Assembly (NCBI GenBank): GCA_022821085.1
Contig: JAJEEG010000006.1
Location: forward strand, 1,819,330 to 1,883,329
Direction of reading: 5' to 3'
From: Candidatus Latescibacterota bacterium
Lineage (GTDB): Bacteria; JAAXHH01
Length of the DNA stretch: 64,000 bases
A model generated the notes under the pieces. The model did not search any database, was not told where the DNA came from, and worked only from the letters and a program-made list of their open reading frames with translations. Shown piece after piece: positions 3,952 through 48,541 of the stretch. Numbering within the stretch: the first letter of the stretch is position 1; every line of letters begins with the position of its first letter. The translations under genes were made by a program, and so were the position numbers.

Positions 3952-3975
3952 GGACGATTAAGGCTGGGAACGACC

Positions 3976-4782
3976 ATGATGACCGAAGCGCAGAGGTATT
4001 TGTTCGACCTGACCGGCTTTCTGCACCTGGAAGGCGCCCTCGAAGAAAAGGTGCTCGCCAAGGCGCTTGACGCCGCGGAACGGTATATCGAGACGCCTGC
4101 CGAAGATCTCCCGCCGGACTTCGGAAGCAGGGACGGCCGCATTTACGACAACGGATTCGCCTTCGACAAGTCACTGGAGCGGCTGGTCTTCCAGCCGAGC
4201 TACTGGCCCATCATAAAGGAGCTCACGTCCGGCAAACCCCGTTTCGTCCGGGGATCCATGCTCGTGAACCAGCCCGGCGGAGTCGTCGATGCGGGGTCGC
4301 TCCACTGTGCGCGCGAGGCCTACGGATGGCAGAGCACGCGCTACGAGTGCCGGGACGGCCGTATTTACTGCGATGATTTCGTCGTTTTTACCTATCTCAC
4401 CGACGTGAATCCCGGTGACGGCGGGCTTGTGGTCGTACCCGGGTCCCACAAGTGCAATTTCGACCGCCCCGATTCGGTCTTTGACGGAGGCGACCTGGAA
4501 GACGACGCCCCGCCCGGCACGATAAACGTCACGCCCAGGGCGGGCGACGCGGTGATCATCTCCGAGTTGCTCACGCACGGTACCCTGCGGTGGAAGCCGA
4601 CCGACCGGAAGCGTATCGTGCTCGTGCTGCGGTACGCGCCCCAGTACAGCGGCGGCGGACCGTGGACGACGGATACGCTCAAGGCCAGGCTTTCGCCCGA
4701 GACCAATGAACTGATGGCCCTGGCCTCCTTCACGGAGGTCAAGGACGTCGCCCAGAGGGAAGTGGTCACGTTAACCGTTTGA
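3976..4782 (+). CDS. phytanoyl-CoA dioxygenase (PhyH)-like protein with H-x-A in place of H-x-D
   Basis: A 268-residue member of the Fe(II)/2-oxoglutarate oxygenase fold. Visible family landmarks are LTDVNPGDGGLVVVPGSHK (residues 141-159), the distal ligand His201 in LLTHG, and the 2-oxoglutarate-binding Arg around 211-213. The proximal motif, normally H-x-D, reads His110-Cys-Ala112, so the carboxylate ligand appears absent. The distance from this His to the YLTD strand (about 32 residues) matches the spacing in the canonical paralogue at 43042 (about 29), so the His is probably the true ligand position. It lies between the glycerate kinase and the FAD/Fe-S dehydrogenase, all on the plus strand. 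The substrate is unknown. Confidence 0.85.
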   Translation: MMTEAQRYLFDLTGFLHLEGALEEKVLAKALDAAERYIETPAEDLPPDFGSRDGRIYDNGFAFDKSLERLVFQPSYWPIIKELTSGKPRFVRGSMLVNQPGGVVDAGSLHCAREAYGWQSTRYECRDGRIYCDDFVVFTYLTDVNPGDGGLVVVPGSHKCNFDRPDSVFDGGDLEDDAPPGTINVTPRAGDAVIISELLTHGTLRWKPTDRKRIVLVLRYAPQYSGGGPWTTDTLKARLSPETNELMALASFTEVKDVAQREVVTLTV

Positions 4783-40639: not shown

Positions 40640-40740
40640 TTTTGGATTCCTCTGATCATATGAAAACGTATGGTGCCGGTGTTTCCGGGAAGTAAACAAC
40701 GGTCGTGGCATCGTCAAGCGAATTCGGGTGGACATCAGGC

Positions 40741-40769
40741 TTGACATCAGACGCGGTTACCGCTACGTT
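40741..40769 (+). promoter_or_regulatory. possible promoter of the PhyH operon
   Basis: A perfect TTGACA (40741-40746), 17-bp spacer, then TACGTT (40764-40769), a weak -10. It stands 61 bp before the PhyH ATG in the 191-bp divergent region. Confidence 0.4.
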
Positions 40770-40830
40770 CGCTCCAATCTTACAACGTACCGGCCGACCG
40801 GCAATGATCGCTATAACCAGGAGCCGCAGG

Positions 40831-41706
40831 ATGACCCTGACCCAGGCGCAGATCGACACATTCAGGGAGGTTGGTTTCCTCAACGTGGGCCGTGTATACA
40901 GCGATGATGAGGCCGACGCGTTGAGGGATCGCCTGATGACGGTTATCGCGGGCACATCGCGGGGAAAGGCCGAGGCGGTTCGGAACATAGCCGGCGAGGA
41001 ACTGGAAGCGGATCGGGACGTCGTGATCCAGGTCGTAAACACCTGGCAGGCCGATGACGGATTCCGCGCTCACCTGTACCAGCCGGAGATCTGCCGCATG
41101 GCCTGCGAACTGATCGGCACCGACGTGCTGCGGGTGTGGCACGACCAGATCCAGTACAAGCCGCCCCGCCGCGGCGGGGCGACGGACTGGCACCAGGACC
41201 ATCCCTACTGGCCGATCATCCAGCCGGCCGACCTGGTGAGCGCCTGGGTGGCCCTGGACGACGCCACCATCGAGAACGGCTGCATGCGCATGGTGCCGCG
41301 CAGCCACCACTGGGGACCCCACAAGGGCGGGACGATCGGGACGAATGAAGACGGTTTCACGCCGGATCCCGATCTTTCCCTCATCCCGGATGACGAAGAG
41401 GTGGAAATTGTCCCCTGCGAGGTCAAGAAAGGCGAATGCATGTTCCACCACTGCCTGACCTGGCACGGCAGTCCGCCCAATCCGTCCGACAACGGCCGCC
41501 CGGCGATCGCGGTGCATTACATGCCGGGGTGGACGAGGTACGAACCTTCCAGGTCCCACATCATGGAGCGCCGGGTAGATGTCGAACCCGGAGAACTCCT
41601 GACCGGCCATTACTTCCCTACCGTTTGGGACCACGGTCCTGTCGAACCGCCGGAGCACTGGTCCGCGCGGGCACCGACGGACGGTCGGAATCCAGCAACA
41701 GGTTGA
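40831..41706 (+). CDS. phytanoyl-CoA dioxygenase (PhyH)-like protein, first gene of operon
   Basis: 291 residues of the Fe(II)/2OG oxygenase fold. Start at 40831 has CAGGAG about 7 bases upstream. The iron site is intact: His121-Gln-Asp123 (DWHQDHPYWPII), distal His212 (CLTWHGSP), and Arg223 as the 2OG partner. The segment AWVALDDATIENGCMRMVPRSHHWGPH is typical of PhyH. The next gene starts 4 bp after the stop, so it leads a six-gene operon. The substrate is unknown. Confidence 0.92.
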   Translation: MTLTQAQIDTFREVGFLNVGRVYSDDEADALRDRLMTVIAGTSRGKAEAVRNIAGEELEADRDVVIQVVNTWQADDGFRAHLYQPEICRMACELIGTDVLRVWHDQIQYKPPRRGGATDWHQDHPYWPIIQPADLVSAWVALDDATIENGCMRMVPRSHHWGPHKGGTIGTNEDGFTPDPDLSLIPDDEEVEIVPCEVKKGECMFHHCLTWHGSPPNPSDNGRPAIAVHYMPGWTRYEPSRSHIMERRVDVEPGELLTGHYFPTVWDHGPVEPPEHWSARAPTDGRNPATG

Positions 41707-41710
41707 ATCC

Positions 41711-42970
41711 GTGCCAGCAACTACAGAAATCACCGGCCACGTCAATACCGCTTCCCGCCCCGGCGATCTGCGCATCACCGACATGCGCACGGTGACGATC
41801 GGTGCGTCGACGATCATCCGGCTCGATACCAACCAGGATATCCACGGCCTGGGAGAAGTGCGGGACGGCGCCAGCAAGACCTATGCGCTCGCACTCAAGT
41901 CGCGCATCCTGGGCGAGAACCCCTGCGACGTCGACCGGATCTTCCGGAAGATCCGCCAGTTCGGCCATCACGCCCGGCAGGCCGGCGGCGTCTGCGCCAT
42001 CGAGATGGCTCTGATGGATCTCGCGGGCAAGGCCTACGGCGTGCCCGCCTATCAGTTGGCGGGCGGGAAGTTCAGGGACTCGGTGCGCATTTACTGCGAC
42101 ACCACCACGTCCCCGGACCCCGGCGAGATGGGCCGGCGCCTGAAGGAACGCATGGACCGGGGATTCACCTTTCTGAAGATGGACGTGGGCATCGGCCTGT
42201 TGAAGGATATACCCGGTACCCTCTCCGCCCCTTCCGGGATGCTGGATACCCTGCACATCATGCATCCGTTCACGGGCATCAGGTTGACGGACAAGGGCAT
42301 CGGCCTGCTGTCGGACTACGTGGCGGGCGTTCGCGACATCGTCGGTTACGAGATTCCGCTGGCCGTCGACCACTTCGGCCACATCGGCGTGGAGGACTGC
42401 ATCCGTCTGGGAAAGGCGCTGGACCGGTACAACCTGGCCTGGTACGAGGACATGGTGCCCTGGCAGTTCACCGAGCAGTACGTCCGGCTGCGCGACGCCT
42501 GCGACACGCCGATCTGCACGGGGGAGGACATCTATCTCAGGGAAGGGTTCATGGAGCTCTTCGAAAACCGGGCCATATCCGTGTGCCATCCCGACCTGGC
42601 CACGTCGGGCGGCATCCTGGAAACCAAGAAGATCGGCGATACGGCCCAGGAATACGGCATATCCATGGCGCTGCACATGTCCGCCATGCCGGTCGCCCAG
42701 ATGGCCAGCGTGCACTGCGCCGCGGCCACGGAGAACTTCATCGCCCTCGAGCACCATCACGTGGACGTGCCCTGGTGGGGTGACCTGGTCACCGGCCTGC
42801 CGGATCCGGTGATCCAGGACGGGTTCATGACCGTGCCCGATGCGCCCGGACTGGGCATCGAACTGAACGAAGAGGCCATACGGGAGCACATCAGCAGTAA
42901 GGACCCCGGATTCTTCGAACCCACCGATGCGTGGAACGACTTGCGATCCCACGACCGCCTGTGGAGCTGA
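41711..42970 (+). CDS. mandelate racemase / muconate lactonizing enzyme-family dehydratase or racemase
   Basis: 419 residues, GTG start. An N-terminal capping domain precedes the barrel with MR-like positions: KMDVG on strand 2, LAVDHF then WYEDM as metal ligands (Asp, Glu), TGEDIYLREGF as third Glu, CHPDLATSGGI, and ALHMS with the His acid/base. Enolase-superfamily members with this ligand pattern dehydrate sugar acids such as gluconate, mannonate or galactarate, or racemise alpha-hydroxyacids; the exact reaction is undetermined. It is the second gene of the PhyH operon. Confidence 0.88.
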   Translation: MPATTEITGHVNTASRPGDLRITDMRTVTIGASTIIRLDTNQDIHGLGEVRDGASKTYALALKSRILGENPCDVDRIFRKIRQFGHHARQAGGVCAIEMALMDLAGKAYGVPAYQLAGGKFRDSVRIYCDTTTSPDPGEMGRRLKERMDRGFTFLKMDVGIGLLKDIPGTLSAPSGMLDTLHIMHPFTGIRLTDKGIGLLSDYVAGVRDIVGYEIPLAVDHFGHIGVEDCIRLGKALDRYNLAWYEDMVPWQFTEQYVRLRDACDTPICTGEDIYLREGFMELFENRAISVCHPDLATSGGILETKKIGDTAQEYGISMALHMSAMPVAQMASVHCAAATENFIALEHHHVDVPWWGDLVTGLPDPVIQDGFMTVPDAPGLGIELNEEAIREHISSKDPGFFEPTDAWNDLRSHDRLWS

Positions 42971-43041: not shown

Positions 43042-44052
43042 ATGTCTATATCCGCTGCCCAGGCTCAGCCGGAACCGTTCGAACCGGACTCTCACCTGGC
43101 CATTACCGAAGCGCAAAGGCGACAATTCGACGAAGACGGGTTCTTTCTGATAGAAAACGCCCTCAAGCCGAAGCGCGTCGAGCGGCTGCTCGAAGTCGTC
43201 GACAAGCTCAGCGACAGATTCCGCAAGGCCCATGGCACGCCTGCCGACGCACCATACCAGATTCGCAACGCCCTGGCGCACCACAAAGAGCTTTTCAGAT
43301 TGATCGATTACCGGAAGATCCTCCGGCTGGTCGTGGACGTCATGGGGGTAAACATCCAGATCCGCACTTCCCACGTGGACGTACGGCCGCCCATGAAAGA
43401 TCACGCGGTAGGAGAACTTGGAGCCAGCGGCAGCTTCTTCCCCTGGCACTCAGACGCACCTAATTACGGTTACCCCATCACCAACGGCGCCATCCCCTTC
43501 TTGGAGGTGAAGGTCGGGTACTACCTGACCGACCTCACCGAGCTCAACAGCGGGGCCATCTGCGTGGTGCGCGGCAGTCATCGGCTTTCGCCCGAACTGA
43601 TCCACGATCCGGACTACCGAATCGAACCGGAGGATATCGTGGAGGTAAACGTAAAGCCCGGAACCGCCATGGTCTGGCGGACGGCCCTGTGGCACTGCCT
43701 GACGCCCAACCTGTCCGACCGCACGCGCAAGTGTCTTTACTACGGGTACAACTACCGGTGGGCGCGCCCGGGGGACTACGACCGCCAGGACGCCAGACTG
43801 CTGGCGCGATGCACGCTCGTACAGCGCCAGTTGCTGGGCTCCAACACGACTGAGGACGGCGTAGTCTACCAGGACGGCGACCCGGCCCATCCGGCTTCCA
43901 GGTTCTGGCGCCCTGAACCCGGGGACGTGCCCCTTGAAGCGTGGGCCGAGAAGCAGCGACATAAGAGGATGCAGAAGGAATGGAGGCGATGGAAAAAAAC
44001 AAATACCCTGCCTCCATACGCCGTGGGCGCACCGGCGGAGCCGACACCATGA
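43042..44052 (+). CDS. phytanoyl-CoA dioxygenase (PhyH)-like protein with canonical iron site
   Basis: 336 residues; AAGGAG lies about 7 bases before the ATG. Iron site His136-Ser-Asp138 (FPWHSDAPNYG), distal His218 (ALWHCLTP), Arg227/229. The middle segment YYLTDLTELNSGAICVVRGSH marks the PhyH fold. A Lys/Arg-rich C-terminal extension (QRHKRMQKEWRRWKKTN) is unusual for the family. Its TGA overlaps the ATG of the next PhyH gene (ATGA). Confidence 0.92.
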   Translation: MSISAAQAQPEPFEPDSHLAITEAQRRQFDEDGFFLIENALKPKRVERLLEVVDKLSDRFRKAHGTPADAPYQIRNALAHHKELFRLIDYRKILRLVVDVMGVNIQIRTSHVDVRPPMKDHAVGELGASGSFFPWHSDAPNYGYPITNGAIPFLEVKVGYYLTDLTELNSGAICVVRGSHRLSPELIHDPDYRIEPEDIVEVNVKPGTAMVWRTALWHCLTPNLSDRTRKCLYYGYNYRWARPGDYDRQDARLLARCTLVQRQLLGSNTTEDGVVYQDGDPAHPASRFWRPEPGDVPLEAWAEKQRHKRMQKEWRRWKKTNTLPPYAVGAPAEPTP

Positions 44053-44780
44053 CCGAAGCGGAAATCTTCGAATTCGACCTGAATGGCGTCATTATCTACC
44101 GGAACATGCTGACCCGGGACCAGGTCGATTACATGAACGGGGTGCTCGACGAACACCTCACGGATGAATCCTACAATTTCCCCTTCCTGGACCTGGACCC
44201 TGTGTTCATGGAAGTCATGGCCCTGCCCCGGACACTGAATGTCCTGAAGACGATGATCGGGGACTGGATGCGCCTGGACCATGCCTACGGGCTCCAGATG
44301 GACACACACACGGTGGAGCGGGGCGATATCCGGCCCAACCTCCACGGCGGACCGCTGGAAGACAACGGCGAGCACCATTACCAGTGGTTCAACGGAAAGA
44401 TGTACAACGGCCTGACGGTGGTCATGTACGCGCTCACGGATGTCAACCCCGGCAACGGCGGATTCATCTGCGTCCCGGGTAGCCACAAGACCAACGTGGA
44501 CTTCAAGCCGCCGCCGGATTCCCACCTCGTGGTGAATCCATCCTTAAAGGCCGGCGACATGCTCATCTTCACCGAGGCGCTTGTACACGGTTCGGACACC
44601 TGGTCCTCGCCGAACAAGCGGCGCTCCCTGCTCTACAAGTATTCGCCCGGTCATTCCACGTGGGCAATACCGGAGAACTGGGAAAAACTTAAGGCTCTCG
44701 CCGCCAACGACCTTCAGCGCGACCTGCTCAGGGCGCCCAGCATCGAAGGCCGGACGCCGGTGGACATACCTGAAGCGTGA
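44049..44780 (+). CDS. PhyH-like protein with H-x-G in place of H-x-D (paralogue 1)
   Basis: 243 residues. Start at 44049 (MTEAEIFEFDLNG) overlaps the previous TGA; an in-frame ATG at 43980 lies inside the previous gene and is less likely. The iron motif region reads NLHGG, with His99 and Gly101 where Asp is expected; the distal His180 (ALVHGS) and 2OG-binding Arg191/192 are intact. YALTDVNPGNGGFICVPGSHKTN is the family core, and the distance from His99 to it matches that of the canonical paralogue, so this is not a misplaced motif. It is 75% or so similar by eye to the next gene and about the same length. Confidence 0.9.
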   Translation: MTEAEIFEFDLNGVIIYRNMLTRDQVDYMNGVLDEHLTDESYNFPFLDLDPVFMEVMALPRTLNVLKTMIGDWMRLDHAYGLQMDTHTVERGDIRPNLHGGPLEDNGEHHYQWFNGKMYNGLTVVMYALTDVNPGNGGFICVPGSHKTNVDFKPPPDSHLVVNPSLKAGDMLIFTEALVHGSDTWSSPNKRRSLLYKYSPGHSTWAIPENWEKLKALAANDLQRDLLRAPSIEGRTPVDIPEA

Positions 44781-44854
44781 GACCGGCGACAGGGCCACAA
44801 GTCCACCGACGGCCGCACAGCTGAAGAAGCCGAACGGACATCCCGGAGGCAACC

Positions 44855-45586
44855 ATGACCGAAGCCGAAATCTTCGAATTCGACCTCAACGGTTACATTG
44901 TTTATAAGGACATGCTGACCCGGGAACAGGTCGATCGCATGAACGGGATCCTGGACGAACATCTCGCCGACGATGCCCACGGTTTCCAGTTCCTCACGCT
45001 CGATCCGGTGTTCATGGAACTCATGGCCCATCCCCGTACGCTTCGGATCATCCGAACGATGATCGGGGAATGGCTGCGGCTGGACCACGCCTACGGGCTG
45101 CAGATGGACCGGCATACCGTGGAGCGGGGCCATGTGAAGCCGAACCTGCATGGCGGCCTGCGGCACGACCACGGCGAACATCAGTACGAGTGGTTCGACG
45201 GGAACATGTACAACGGACTGATCGTGGTCATGTACGCTCTCAAGGACATCAACCCCGGCGACGGCGGGCTCATCTGCGTTCCCGGAAGCCACAAGTCGAA
45301 CTTCCGTTTCCGTCCGCCCGTGGATTCCCACCTGGTCGCGAACCCGTCGTTCATGGCCGGAGATATGCTCATCTTCACGGAAGCGCTGGTCCACGGCACC
45401 ACCACGTGGACGTCCGATCAGCAGCGGCGCGCCTTGCTGTACAAGTATTCGCCCGGTTATTCCGCCTGGGCCTCCGCCGACAATCTGGACGACGCCCGGG
45501 CCCTGGCCTCCAATGACCTGCAGCGCGACTTGCTCCGTCCACCAAGCGTGGGCAGGCGGACGCCTTTGGAAATCCCCGATGGGTGA
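44855..45586 (+). CDS. PhyH-like protein with H-x-G in place of H-x-D (paralogue 2)
   Basis: 243 residues and the same length as the preceding paralogue, with identical numbering at the key positions: His99-Gly-Gly101 (NLHGG), distal His180 (ALVHGT), Arg191/192. The core reads YALKDINPGDGGLICVPGSHKSN. CGGAGG precedes the ATG about 6 bases upstream. It is a recent-looking tandem duplicate that has diverged in the substrate loops (HDHGEHQYEWFDGNMYNG versus EDNGEHHYQWFNGKMYNG). Confidence 0.9.
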   Translation: MTEAEIFEFDLNGYIVYKDMLTREQVDRMNGILDEHLADDAHGFQFLTLDPVFMELMAHPRTLRIIRTMIGEWLRLDHAYGLQMDRHTVERGHVKPNLHGGLRHDHGEHQYEWFDGNMYNGLIVVMYALKDINPGDGGLICVPGSHKSNFRFRPPVDSHLVANPSFMAGDMLIFTEALVHGTTTWTSDQQRRALLYKYSPGYSAWASADNLDDARALASNDLQRDLLRPPSVGRRTPLEIPDG

Positions 45587-45663: not shown

Positions 45664-46479
45664 ATGAACGTGCGGGATGAATACCGCTACAACCGGTTGA
45701 CCTGGGAGGATATGAACGAGGCTATCGCCATGCAGAAGGTGGTGGTCCTGCCCACGGGTTCCACCGAGCAGCACGGCAAACACCTGCCCCTCGACACGGA
45801 CGCTTTTCTCGTCGAATCCGTCTGCCACGAACTGGGGCGCCGCATCCCAGACCGCGTCCTCGTCCTTCCCACGGTCAGCTACGGCCTGAACCTGCACCAC
45901 ATCGACTTTCCGGGCACGATCCACATCGAGCCCGAGGTATTCATCGCATTCTGCCTGAACATTACCAAAAGCGTGGCCTACCACGGCTTTGAAAAGATCC
46001 TGATTGTAAACGGCCATGGTTCCAACGCACCGATGATCGATCTGATCGCCCGGAAGACCGTGCTTTCTACGGAGTCGCTCTGTTTCGCCGCCAACTACTT
46101 CACCTTCCTGATTGACGCCTTCAACGAAGTTAGGGAATCGGAGGTGTTGGCCCACGCCGACGAACTGGAAACGTCCCTCTACCTCCATCTTGCCGGCGAA
46201 CGCGTAAAGATGGACAAGGCCGCGCCGGACATGGACCGGGTGGGGAAGTACTGCTCGTCGGACAGCACGGGTACCGTGCGCTTTAACGATTTCTGGGGCC
46301 GGTGGACGGGCCTGGGGGTCCACGGAGACCCGACGCCGGCCACGGCCGGGAAGGGCGAAATCATCTTCAACGCGTCCGTGGACGGCCTGGTCGAACTGAT
46401 CGACGATATCCGGGATTGGCCGATCGAGGAGCGAAGCGATCAGCACACGGGGCCGGTGCAGAAGGGGATCAGGTGGTGA
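45664..46479 (+). CDS. creatininase-family amidohydrolase
   Basis: 271 residues. Metal ligands are visible in GSTEQHGKHLPLDTDAF (Glu35, His37, Asp44), LNLHHIDFPGTIHIEP, NGHGSNAP and HADELETSLYLH. The family hydrolyses cyclic amides (creatinine) or the formamide of FAPy-type compounds (MftE/ArfB-like). The substrate here is unknown. It is the last gene of the PhyH operon, 77 bp after the previous gene; GGAGAG lies upstream of the ATG. The next gene is convergent. Confidence 0.92.
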   Translation: MNVRDEYRYNRLTWEDMNEAIAMQKVVVLPTGSTEQHGKHLPLDTDAFLVESVCHELGRRIPDRVLVLPTVSYGLNLHHIDFPGTIHIEPEVFIAFCLNITKSVAYHGFEKILIVNGHGSNAPMIDLIARKTVLSTESLCFAANYFTFLIDAFNEVRESEVLAHADELETSLYLHLAGERVKMDKAAPDMDRVGKYCSSDSTGTVRFNDFWGRWTGLGVHGDPTPATAGKGEIIFNASVDGLVELIDDIRDWPIEERSDQHTGPVQKGIRW

Positions 46480-47272: not shown

Positions 47273-48541
47273 TCAATCCTCTTTCCGTGACGCGTCCTTG
47301 CTCCGTGACGCGTCTTCGTCCATCAAACGCACGATTTCTCCGGCCGCGGCTTCGACCACCGGGAACGCCCGTTCCTCCAGCGTACGCAGGTCGAGCAGAA
47401 AACGGTCTCCCGACAGCCGGCCGAATACGGGGGGCGACTGCCGCCTGAACGCGGCGGCGAATTGCCTGTTCGTCCATCCCTCGGGCCGAAGCGCCACGAC
47501 GCGGGAGGGGAGTTGCTGGACCGGCAAGGCGCCGCCTCCGATTTCAGCGTAAGATTCCTCCACGGTCACATCGACGCGGTGCGCGAAACGGCCCGCGAGA
47601 CCTTCCGCGAGTCGATGCGCCCTGGATTCGAGCTCCCCGGCCGATGCGGCGATCATACCCGTAACCGCGTGACAATCGGCGAGCCTGTCCGGATCGGAAA
47701 ACAGCTCCAGGGTGGCCTGCAGGGCGGCATAGACCATCTTGTCCGCGCGAAATGCCCGCATCAGCGGATCCTGTTTCATTTTACCGAGTAGATCCCTCCG
47801 GCCCGCGATGATCCCGGCCTGCGGCCCGCCCAGCAGCTTGTCGCCGCTGAAGCAGACCACGTCGACGCCCCGGTCGAGCGCTTCCCGCACCGTGTATCCG
47901 CTGTCCAGACCGTGCTGCGCGTACGCTTCCAGGTCGACCAGGGCGCCGCTTCCCTGGTCGTACACGACGGGAATTCCGCTTTCGCGTCCGAGTGCCGCCA
48001 GTTCATCAAGGGGCACGGAAACGTCCATGCCGGCGAGGTCGAAATTACTCCGGTGGACGGCCATGATGAGGGCCGTCCGGTCCGTGATGGCCGCGCGGTA
48101 GTCTTCCAGTTCGGTATGGTTGGTTGCCCCCACGCCAACGAGCCGGGCCCCTCCCGCGGCCATGACGTCCGGCATGCGAAAGGACCCGCCGATTTCCACC
48201 AGTTGTCCCCGGGAGACAATGACTTCGCGGTCCTGCGCCAGGGCGTGCAGGATCAGCATGACCGCGGCGGCGTTGTTGTTCGCCACGATGGCCGATTCCG
48301 CTCCGGTCAAGGCGCACAGCAGCCCGGAAACCAGGTCGTGGCGCGAACCTCGCTTGCCCGTCCCGGCATCGATCTCCAACGTGCAGTATCCCTCGACCGC
48401 GTCGGCCAAGGCCCGCTGCGCCACCTCGGACAGCACGGCCCGCCCCAGCCCGGTATGGAGAATCACGCCCGTTCCGTTCACGGCGGGTGTCAACGCGCCG
48501 GCCGGAGGTCGTGCTGATGATGAATTAAGCTGGTCTGGCAT
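47273..48541 (-). CDS. selA: L-seryl-tRNA(Sec) selenium transferase, N-terminally short
   Basis: 422 residues. The PLP domain is strongly conserved: NGTGVILHTGLGRAVLSE, NNNAAAVMLILHALA, VSRGQLVEIGGSFRMPDV, NHTELEDY, VVYDQGSGALVDLE and the PLP Lys235 in FSGDKLLGGPQAG. The active-site Lys lies 60 residues earlier than in E. coli SelA (Lys295): the N-terminal domain of about 60 residues, which binds tRNA-Sec, is missing. Upstream of the ATG the frame has no usable start and reaches a TGA within 20 codons, so a longer form is unlikely. No ribosome site is seen. It follows the amidase by 25 bp. Confidence 0.92.
   Translation of the reverse strand: MPDQLNSSSARPPAGALTPAVNGTGVILHTGLGRAVLSEVAQRALADAVEGYCTLEIDAGTGKRGSRHDLVSGLLCALTGAESAIVANNNAAAVMLILHALAQDREVIVSRGQLVEIGGSFRMPDVMAAGGARLVGVGATNHTELEDYRAAITDRTALIMAVHRSNFDLAGMDVSVPLDELAALGRESGIPVVYDQGSGALVDLEAYAQHGLDSGYTVREALDRGVDVVCFSGDKLLGGPQAGIIAGRRDLLGKMKQDPLMRAFRADKMVYAALQATLELFSDPDRLADCHAVTGMIAASAGELESRAHRLAEGLAGRFAHRVDVTVEESYAEIGGGALPVQQLPSRVVALRPEGWTNRQFAAAFRRQSPPVFGRLSGDRFLLDLRTLEERAFPVVEAAAGEIVRLMDEDASRSKDASRKED

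Follow-up and report, generated by a model that had tools for sequence, protein, structure and literature searches.

What does a PhyH enzyme do with its iron once the aspartate of the H-x-D motif is gone? In the window, by which we mean the whole 64,000-nucleotide stretch analysed here, two tandem genes encode PhyH-family proteins of 243 aa each with H-G-G at the proximal iron site (copy 1, 44049..44780, + strand; copy 2, 44855..45586, + strand). H-x-G/A is currently accepted and used as a marker of Fe/2OG halogenases, including in annotation (PMC12871659, PMC11186838), and the initial annotation of this locus had offered halogenases as one reading and enzymes using another carboxylate as a second.

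Both copies match PF05721 (PhyH) with 50.5 and 51.6 bits (gathering cut-off 22; E 4e-13 and 2e-13), are 70% identical to each other, and carry R75, D77, H78, H99, G100, G101, E108, H109, Y111, E176, H180, R191 and R192 at the same positions. The proximal His and the Gly that replaces the Asp of H-x-D lie in H99-G100-G101 (44343..44351 in copy 1 and 45149..45157 in copy 2), followed by a loop with E108-H109 (44370..44375 and 45176..45181), by E176-A-L-V-H180, in which an acid stands four residues before the distal His (H-4; 44574..44588 and 45380..45394), and by R191, the presumed 2-oxoglutarate Arg (44619..44621 and 45425..45427), all on the + strand. The sequences bear out the earlier description of an H-x-G site in both copies with the distal H180 and the Arg (R191) kept. 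The spacing given with that description was right for these proteins, where the core Leu comes 30 residues after the proximal His, but not for the H-x-D protein at 43042, where the count is 26 and not 29.

The two genes stand in a run on the + strand that opens with an H-x-D PhyH (WHQD; 40705..41706, +, true start probably near 40831) and continues with an enolase-superfamily (MR_MLE) protein resembling sugar-acid dehydratases (41711..42970, +) and a second H-x-D PhyH (WHSD; 43042..44052, +). The ATG of copy 1 (44049) overlaps the TGA of this last gene, so that translational coupling of both genes is probable, and the next same-strand gene after copy 2 encodes a creatininase-family amidohydrolase (45664..46479, +). 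Most loci in the window's order keep this arrangement of H-x-D PhyH, LHGG gene(s) and creatininase. The LHGG tandem pair is found across the window's genus, family- and order-level relatives have one close copy, and LHGG tandem pairs or triples are recurrent in Poribacteria. Creatininase was also considered as a partner family-wide and rejected, as a strict recount confined it to the window's order, a wider count having been due to shadow ORFs. With low confidence, the gene content would suit a pathway that metabolises a sugar acid or a compound like it; that the two LHGG proteins take such a compound of the operon as their substrate is a guess.

To describe the family, one genome per species was searched and the best 80 of 249 relatives were kept; among these 80 the assemblies are labelled Latescibacterota, Poribacteria, Gemmatimonadetes, Planctomycetota, Cyanobacteria and Gammaproteobacteria. 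The best named relatives come from Candidatus Latescibacterota metagenome assemblies at 98% identity, and no viral relatives were found. H99 is invariant in 109 of 109 clade members, position 100 holds Gly in 106 and Ala in 3, position 101 holds Gly throughout, and R75, D77, H78, E176, H180, R191, R192, P200 and W205 are invariant as well. This family-wide alignment confirms the suspicion, voiced in the initial annotation, that the substitution is common to a whole PhyH subfamily. Judged from these sequences, loss of the Asp at H+2 is not chance or error, being shared by all relatives, with a tandem pair that recurs in the genus.

The same clade holds further departures from the usual site. 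A PhyH at window positions 3952-4779 (+) has an H-C-A proximal site (SLHCAREAYGW) and a Glu at distal H-4, with HCA-motif relatives in several genomes (L239, L343, L347, L348 and L353), while the protein at L234:263-1216 (+) has lost the proximal His, keeps the distal H-4 Glu (FTESLIHAAN) and is a possible pseudo-enzyme. PhyH (PF05721) matches number 110 in the window's own 3.75 Mb genome (G000) and 109 in the Poribacterial genome G054; PhyH abundance in Poribacteria has already been published (PMC3909097).

Among solved proteins in the PDB, HygX matched most strongly by sequence (E 5e-16 for A1 and 1.5e-28 for A2, the two copies). An AlphaFold2 model built from 80 sequences (mean pLDDT 92.3, pTM 0.90), which replaces a 13-sequence model (pLDDT 66), was compared with all PDB chains, and HygX chains took the first 16 places (E 1e-16 to 2e-14), with AndA, TlxIJ, SptF and DhiD next. 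HygX has PDB entries 4XC9, 4XCA, 4XCB and 4ZPI, of which 4ZPI contains Fe and 4XCA and 4XCB contain Ni and 2OG. It resembles the window proteins in its PhyH fold, its proximal LHGG, a Glu at H-4 of the distal site (NEALMHG; Glu202 in the numbering of the sequence alignment), the distal His and the Arg. When the folds are aligned it is about 24% identical to them; it is without D77-H78 and E108-H109, and its gene belongs to a Streptomyces antibiotic cluster, whereas the window's genes lie in a chromosomal run that also encodes a dehydratase and a creatininase-family protein. On a tree of 152 PhyHs HygX fell in a 24-row clade (SH-aLRT 100), and a second tree, the 70-row one described below, recovered a 65-row HygX clade (98/93) which one stray long H-x-D row joins, HygX being a long branch on the PhyH trees. 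By sequence, predicted fold, tree position and the combination of LHGG with an H-4 Glu, both window proteins belong to this HygX-type PhyH clade. McCulloch et al. (2015), in the abstract of their paper on the structure of HygX, reportedly mention variation in the metal coordination of the enzyme. HygX acts on hygromycin B and orthoester formation has been discussed for it in a review (PMC8234114); its activity is itself assigned from structure and gene cluster in the literature consulted, which counts against the explanation that we favour below.

The H-x-D PhyH hydroxylases (PHYH, EctD, PHYHD1 and the window's own 40816 and 43042) have the PF05721 domain, the distal His and the Arg in common with the two copies, and differ from them in having Asp at H+2 and, as a rule, a non-acidic residue at distal H-4. 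We looked at how these two positions vary together in the window's genome, where 110 PF05721 matches were found and 111 PhyH ORFs were fetched and aligned. All 13 PhyHs that retain the proximal His and are without D/E at H+2 (proximal motifs HGG, HGS, HGN, HGY, HNG, HSG and HCA) have an acid at distal H-4 (12 Glu, 1 Asp), versus only 3 of the 96 H-x-D/E PhyHs, all with Asp and none with Glu (Fisher 2.4e-14 for the association of H-4 acid with a missing H+2 acid). When the clade was enlarged with members from Latescibacterota and Poribacteria genomes, the clade and its outgroup together gave an H-4 acid in 108 of 118 H-x-(not D/E) proteins (E in 107, D in 1, P in the other 10) and in 0 of 50 H-x-D proteins. 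Each of the ten exceptions without either acid (LELHGGHKGW, LPNTRHAG) is encoded beside an H-x-D paralogue, and these pairs look as if one partner had turned non-catalytic.

Nested in the HygX clade is a lineage that has H-R-D or H-K-D together with Thr/Ser/Pro instead of the H-4 acid. In a tree of 70 non-redundant rows from which the motif columns had been removed, this lineage was supported at 100/98 and its sister, which has neither acid, at 100/99. From these counts and trees the acid and the Asp appear to be mutually replacing, with at least one event in each direction. The coupled swap amounts to two or three independent events, so that the count is strong but independent replicates are few, too few for a sign test of the coupled change to reach significance. 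Two H-x-D proteins of a single Poribacterial family have Glu at H-4 as well, which means that the swap rule is not absolute and the acid not exclusive, and Asp occurs at this position in a few H-x-D proteins. The second suggestion of the initial annotation, that another carboxylate is in use, was right in kind; the residue it named, E108, was the wrong one, as it is E176 that tracks the loss of the Asp.

Taken with the fold and family comparisons, this makes it probable that both copies are HygX-type Fe(II)/2OG oxygenases and not halogenases. H99 and H180 would ligate the iron and R191 would bind 2OG, while the vacant aspartate site would be occupied by a water held by E176, in the way that Asp721 holds one in human AspH; a ferryl formed at such a site may then carry out hydroxylation, demethylation or ring closure as opposed to halide transfer. 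Human AspH has an HXG...H site with two His ligands and a water, W1, at the carboxylate site, held by D721 exactly four residues before the distal H725, and its activity is much reduced by D721A (PMC13168262). A pseudohalide binds the iron of AspH elsewhere, and no halogenation was seen (PMC13168262, PMC6817910). The simplest reading is that E176 in the HygX clade would play the role of D721, as H-x-G, the acid at H-4 and a presumed two-His iron site are common to both. AspH is nevertheless of a different family, Pfam finding PhyH alone in the window proteins, and its substrates are proteins. Among enzymes in which the Asp was replaced by mutation, FIH D201G kept its activity (PMC6817910), P4H D414G and D414A lost theirs and gained no halogenase activity (PMC2767507), and human PHYH D177G was inactive (PMC12816917). 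For the inactive P4H D414G and PHYH D177G no compensating change is reported (PMC2767507, PMC12816917), and this counts in favour of the water-holding role for E176.

One alternative keeps the same residue and has E176 ligate the iron directly, giving a re-wired 2-His-1-carboxylate triad (H99, E176 and H180) in which the carboxylate was relocated and the change later undone in one lineage. The AlphaFold2 model has strand 171-175 stopping right before E176 and H180 opening the next strand. A direct E176-iron bond is possible, but we consider it rather unlikely when set beside the water-holding arrangement seen in AspH. If it were true, genome mining could use the H-4 acid to tell H-x-G oxygenases apart from true halogenases. 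E176 could alternatively be a lineage-specific substrate or structural residue.

That E108 supplies the third ligand, for an ordinary 2-His-1-carboxylate centre with longer spacing, is improbable. This is the loop acid (HDHGEH in one copy, EDNGEHH in the other) to which the initial annotation had pointed, and a [DE]-H-x-[YF] motif is indeed kept in 105 of the 109 LHGG proteins. Profile-profile alignment to H-x-D PhyHs by hhalign laid the canonical Asp on E108; the same alignment put the canonical His on the non-conserved position 106 and is ambiguous in the loop. The acid is confined to the LHGG clade, however, with E108 and H109 missing in the cyanobacterial members, in L099, in most other H-x-G paralogues and in HygX, and within its core the AlphaFold2 model is least certain in loop 101-110; H99 closes a short strand (97-99) of that model. 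We take H99 as the proximal ligand because it is invariant across the wider clade, HygX included, and because the predicted strand ends there.

It is likewise improbable that one or both copies act as non-catalytic partner subunits of the upstream H-x-D PhyH at 43042. The overlapping start codon and an adjacency conserved in the order would suit such a role, an H-x-D protein is repeatedly paired with a copy without both acids in the same clade, and two enzymes of this sort, TlxI and TlxJ, have been solved as a heterodimer (PDB 7vbq). All core residues of the window copies are nonetheless invariant, R191 and E176 included, many relatives are without a neighbour of the 43042 type, and the H-4 acid, which the window copies kept, is gone from those paired copies that appear non-catalytic. 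Tandem arrangements of an H-x-D PhyH (HRDTSGF) with an acid-less copy (LELHGGHKGW, LPNTRHAG) occur in Poribacteria at L304-L309, L313, L317, L320 and L322, and may be pairs of a catalytic and a non-catalytic subunit.

The halogenase reading, in which chloride or bromide would take the place of the lost Asp and be transferred to the substrate, has the accepted marker on its side and SyrB2 and CytC3 distantly in the same fold and family, but is very improbable, as copy 1 scores 21 bits and copy 2 has no match on TIGR01762, the chlorinating-enzyme model, whose cut-off is 226.3 (40816, an ordinary H-x-D neighbour, reaches 48.1 bits, more than copy 1), the nearest solved protein, HygX, is not a halogenase, an acid occupies H-4 where SyrB2 and CytC3 carry Ser, the acid at this position in the HXG...H hydroxylase AspH holds W1, which halide does not displace, and the annotated neighbours include no carrier protein or other natural-product assembly gene. 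With HygX closest and the replacement acid family-wide, oxygenases are more likely than halogenases.

SyrB2 and CytC3 (TIGR01762) share with the window proteins the superfamily and the absence of an Asp at H+2, their proximal site being HQA, and differ in the Ser at distal H-4, where both window proteins have Glu; we note Ser at this position as a halogenase feature from these two enzymes, as read from the PDB alignment of the protein L364 described below. No chlorinating enzyme scored above the TIGR01762 cut-off in 384 genomes to serve as a control.

These distinctions bear on annotation: applied alone, the H-x-G/A rule would flag as halogenases, and so probably mislabel, an LHGG family found in Latescibacterota, Poribacteria and other bacteria. 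The coupled loss of the Asp and gain of the H-4 acid, with one lineage reversed, offers a simple sequence rule with a structural precedent in AspH, and makes the choice between hydroxylation and halogenation, once the Asp ligand is gone, a testable matter. A natural test case is L364:1195-2331 (+), a SyrB2-like protein with 174 bits on TIGR01762 (below 226.3) and H-Q-A at the proximal site but a Glu at distal H-4 (FTERCIHGSG). By the H-4 acid rule this protein should not be a halogenase, and meanwhile it counts against the explanation that we favour.

Two further observations concern gene neighbours. In Poribacteria, tandem LHGG genes are followed by genes for an ankyrin-repeat protein and an AAC(3)-family (Antibiotic_NAT) acetyltransferase at L069, L070, L074, L076, L080, L090, L092, L104, L108 and L109; the acetyltransferases deserve mention since HygX acts on an aminoglycoside, and their scores are far below resistance-gene cut-offs. 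In the window itself, positions 47273-48541 (-) encode the L-seryl-tRNA(Sec) selenium transferase SelA (TIGR00474, 485.8 bits, cut-off 267.9), which suggests selenocysteine use in the window's lineage.
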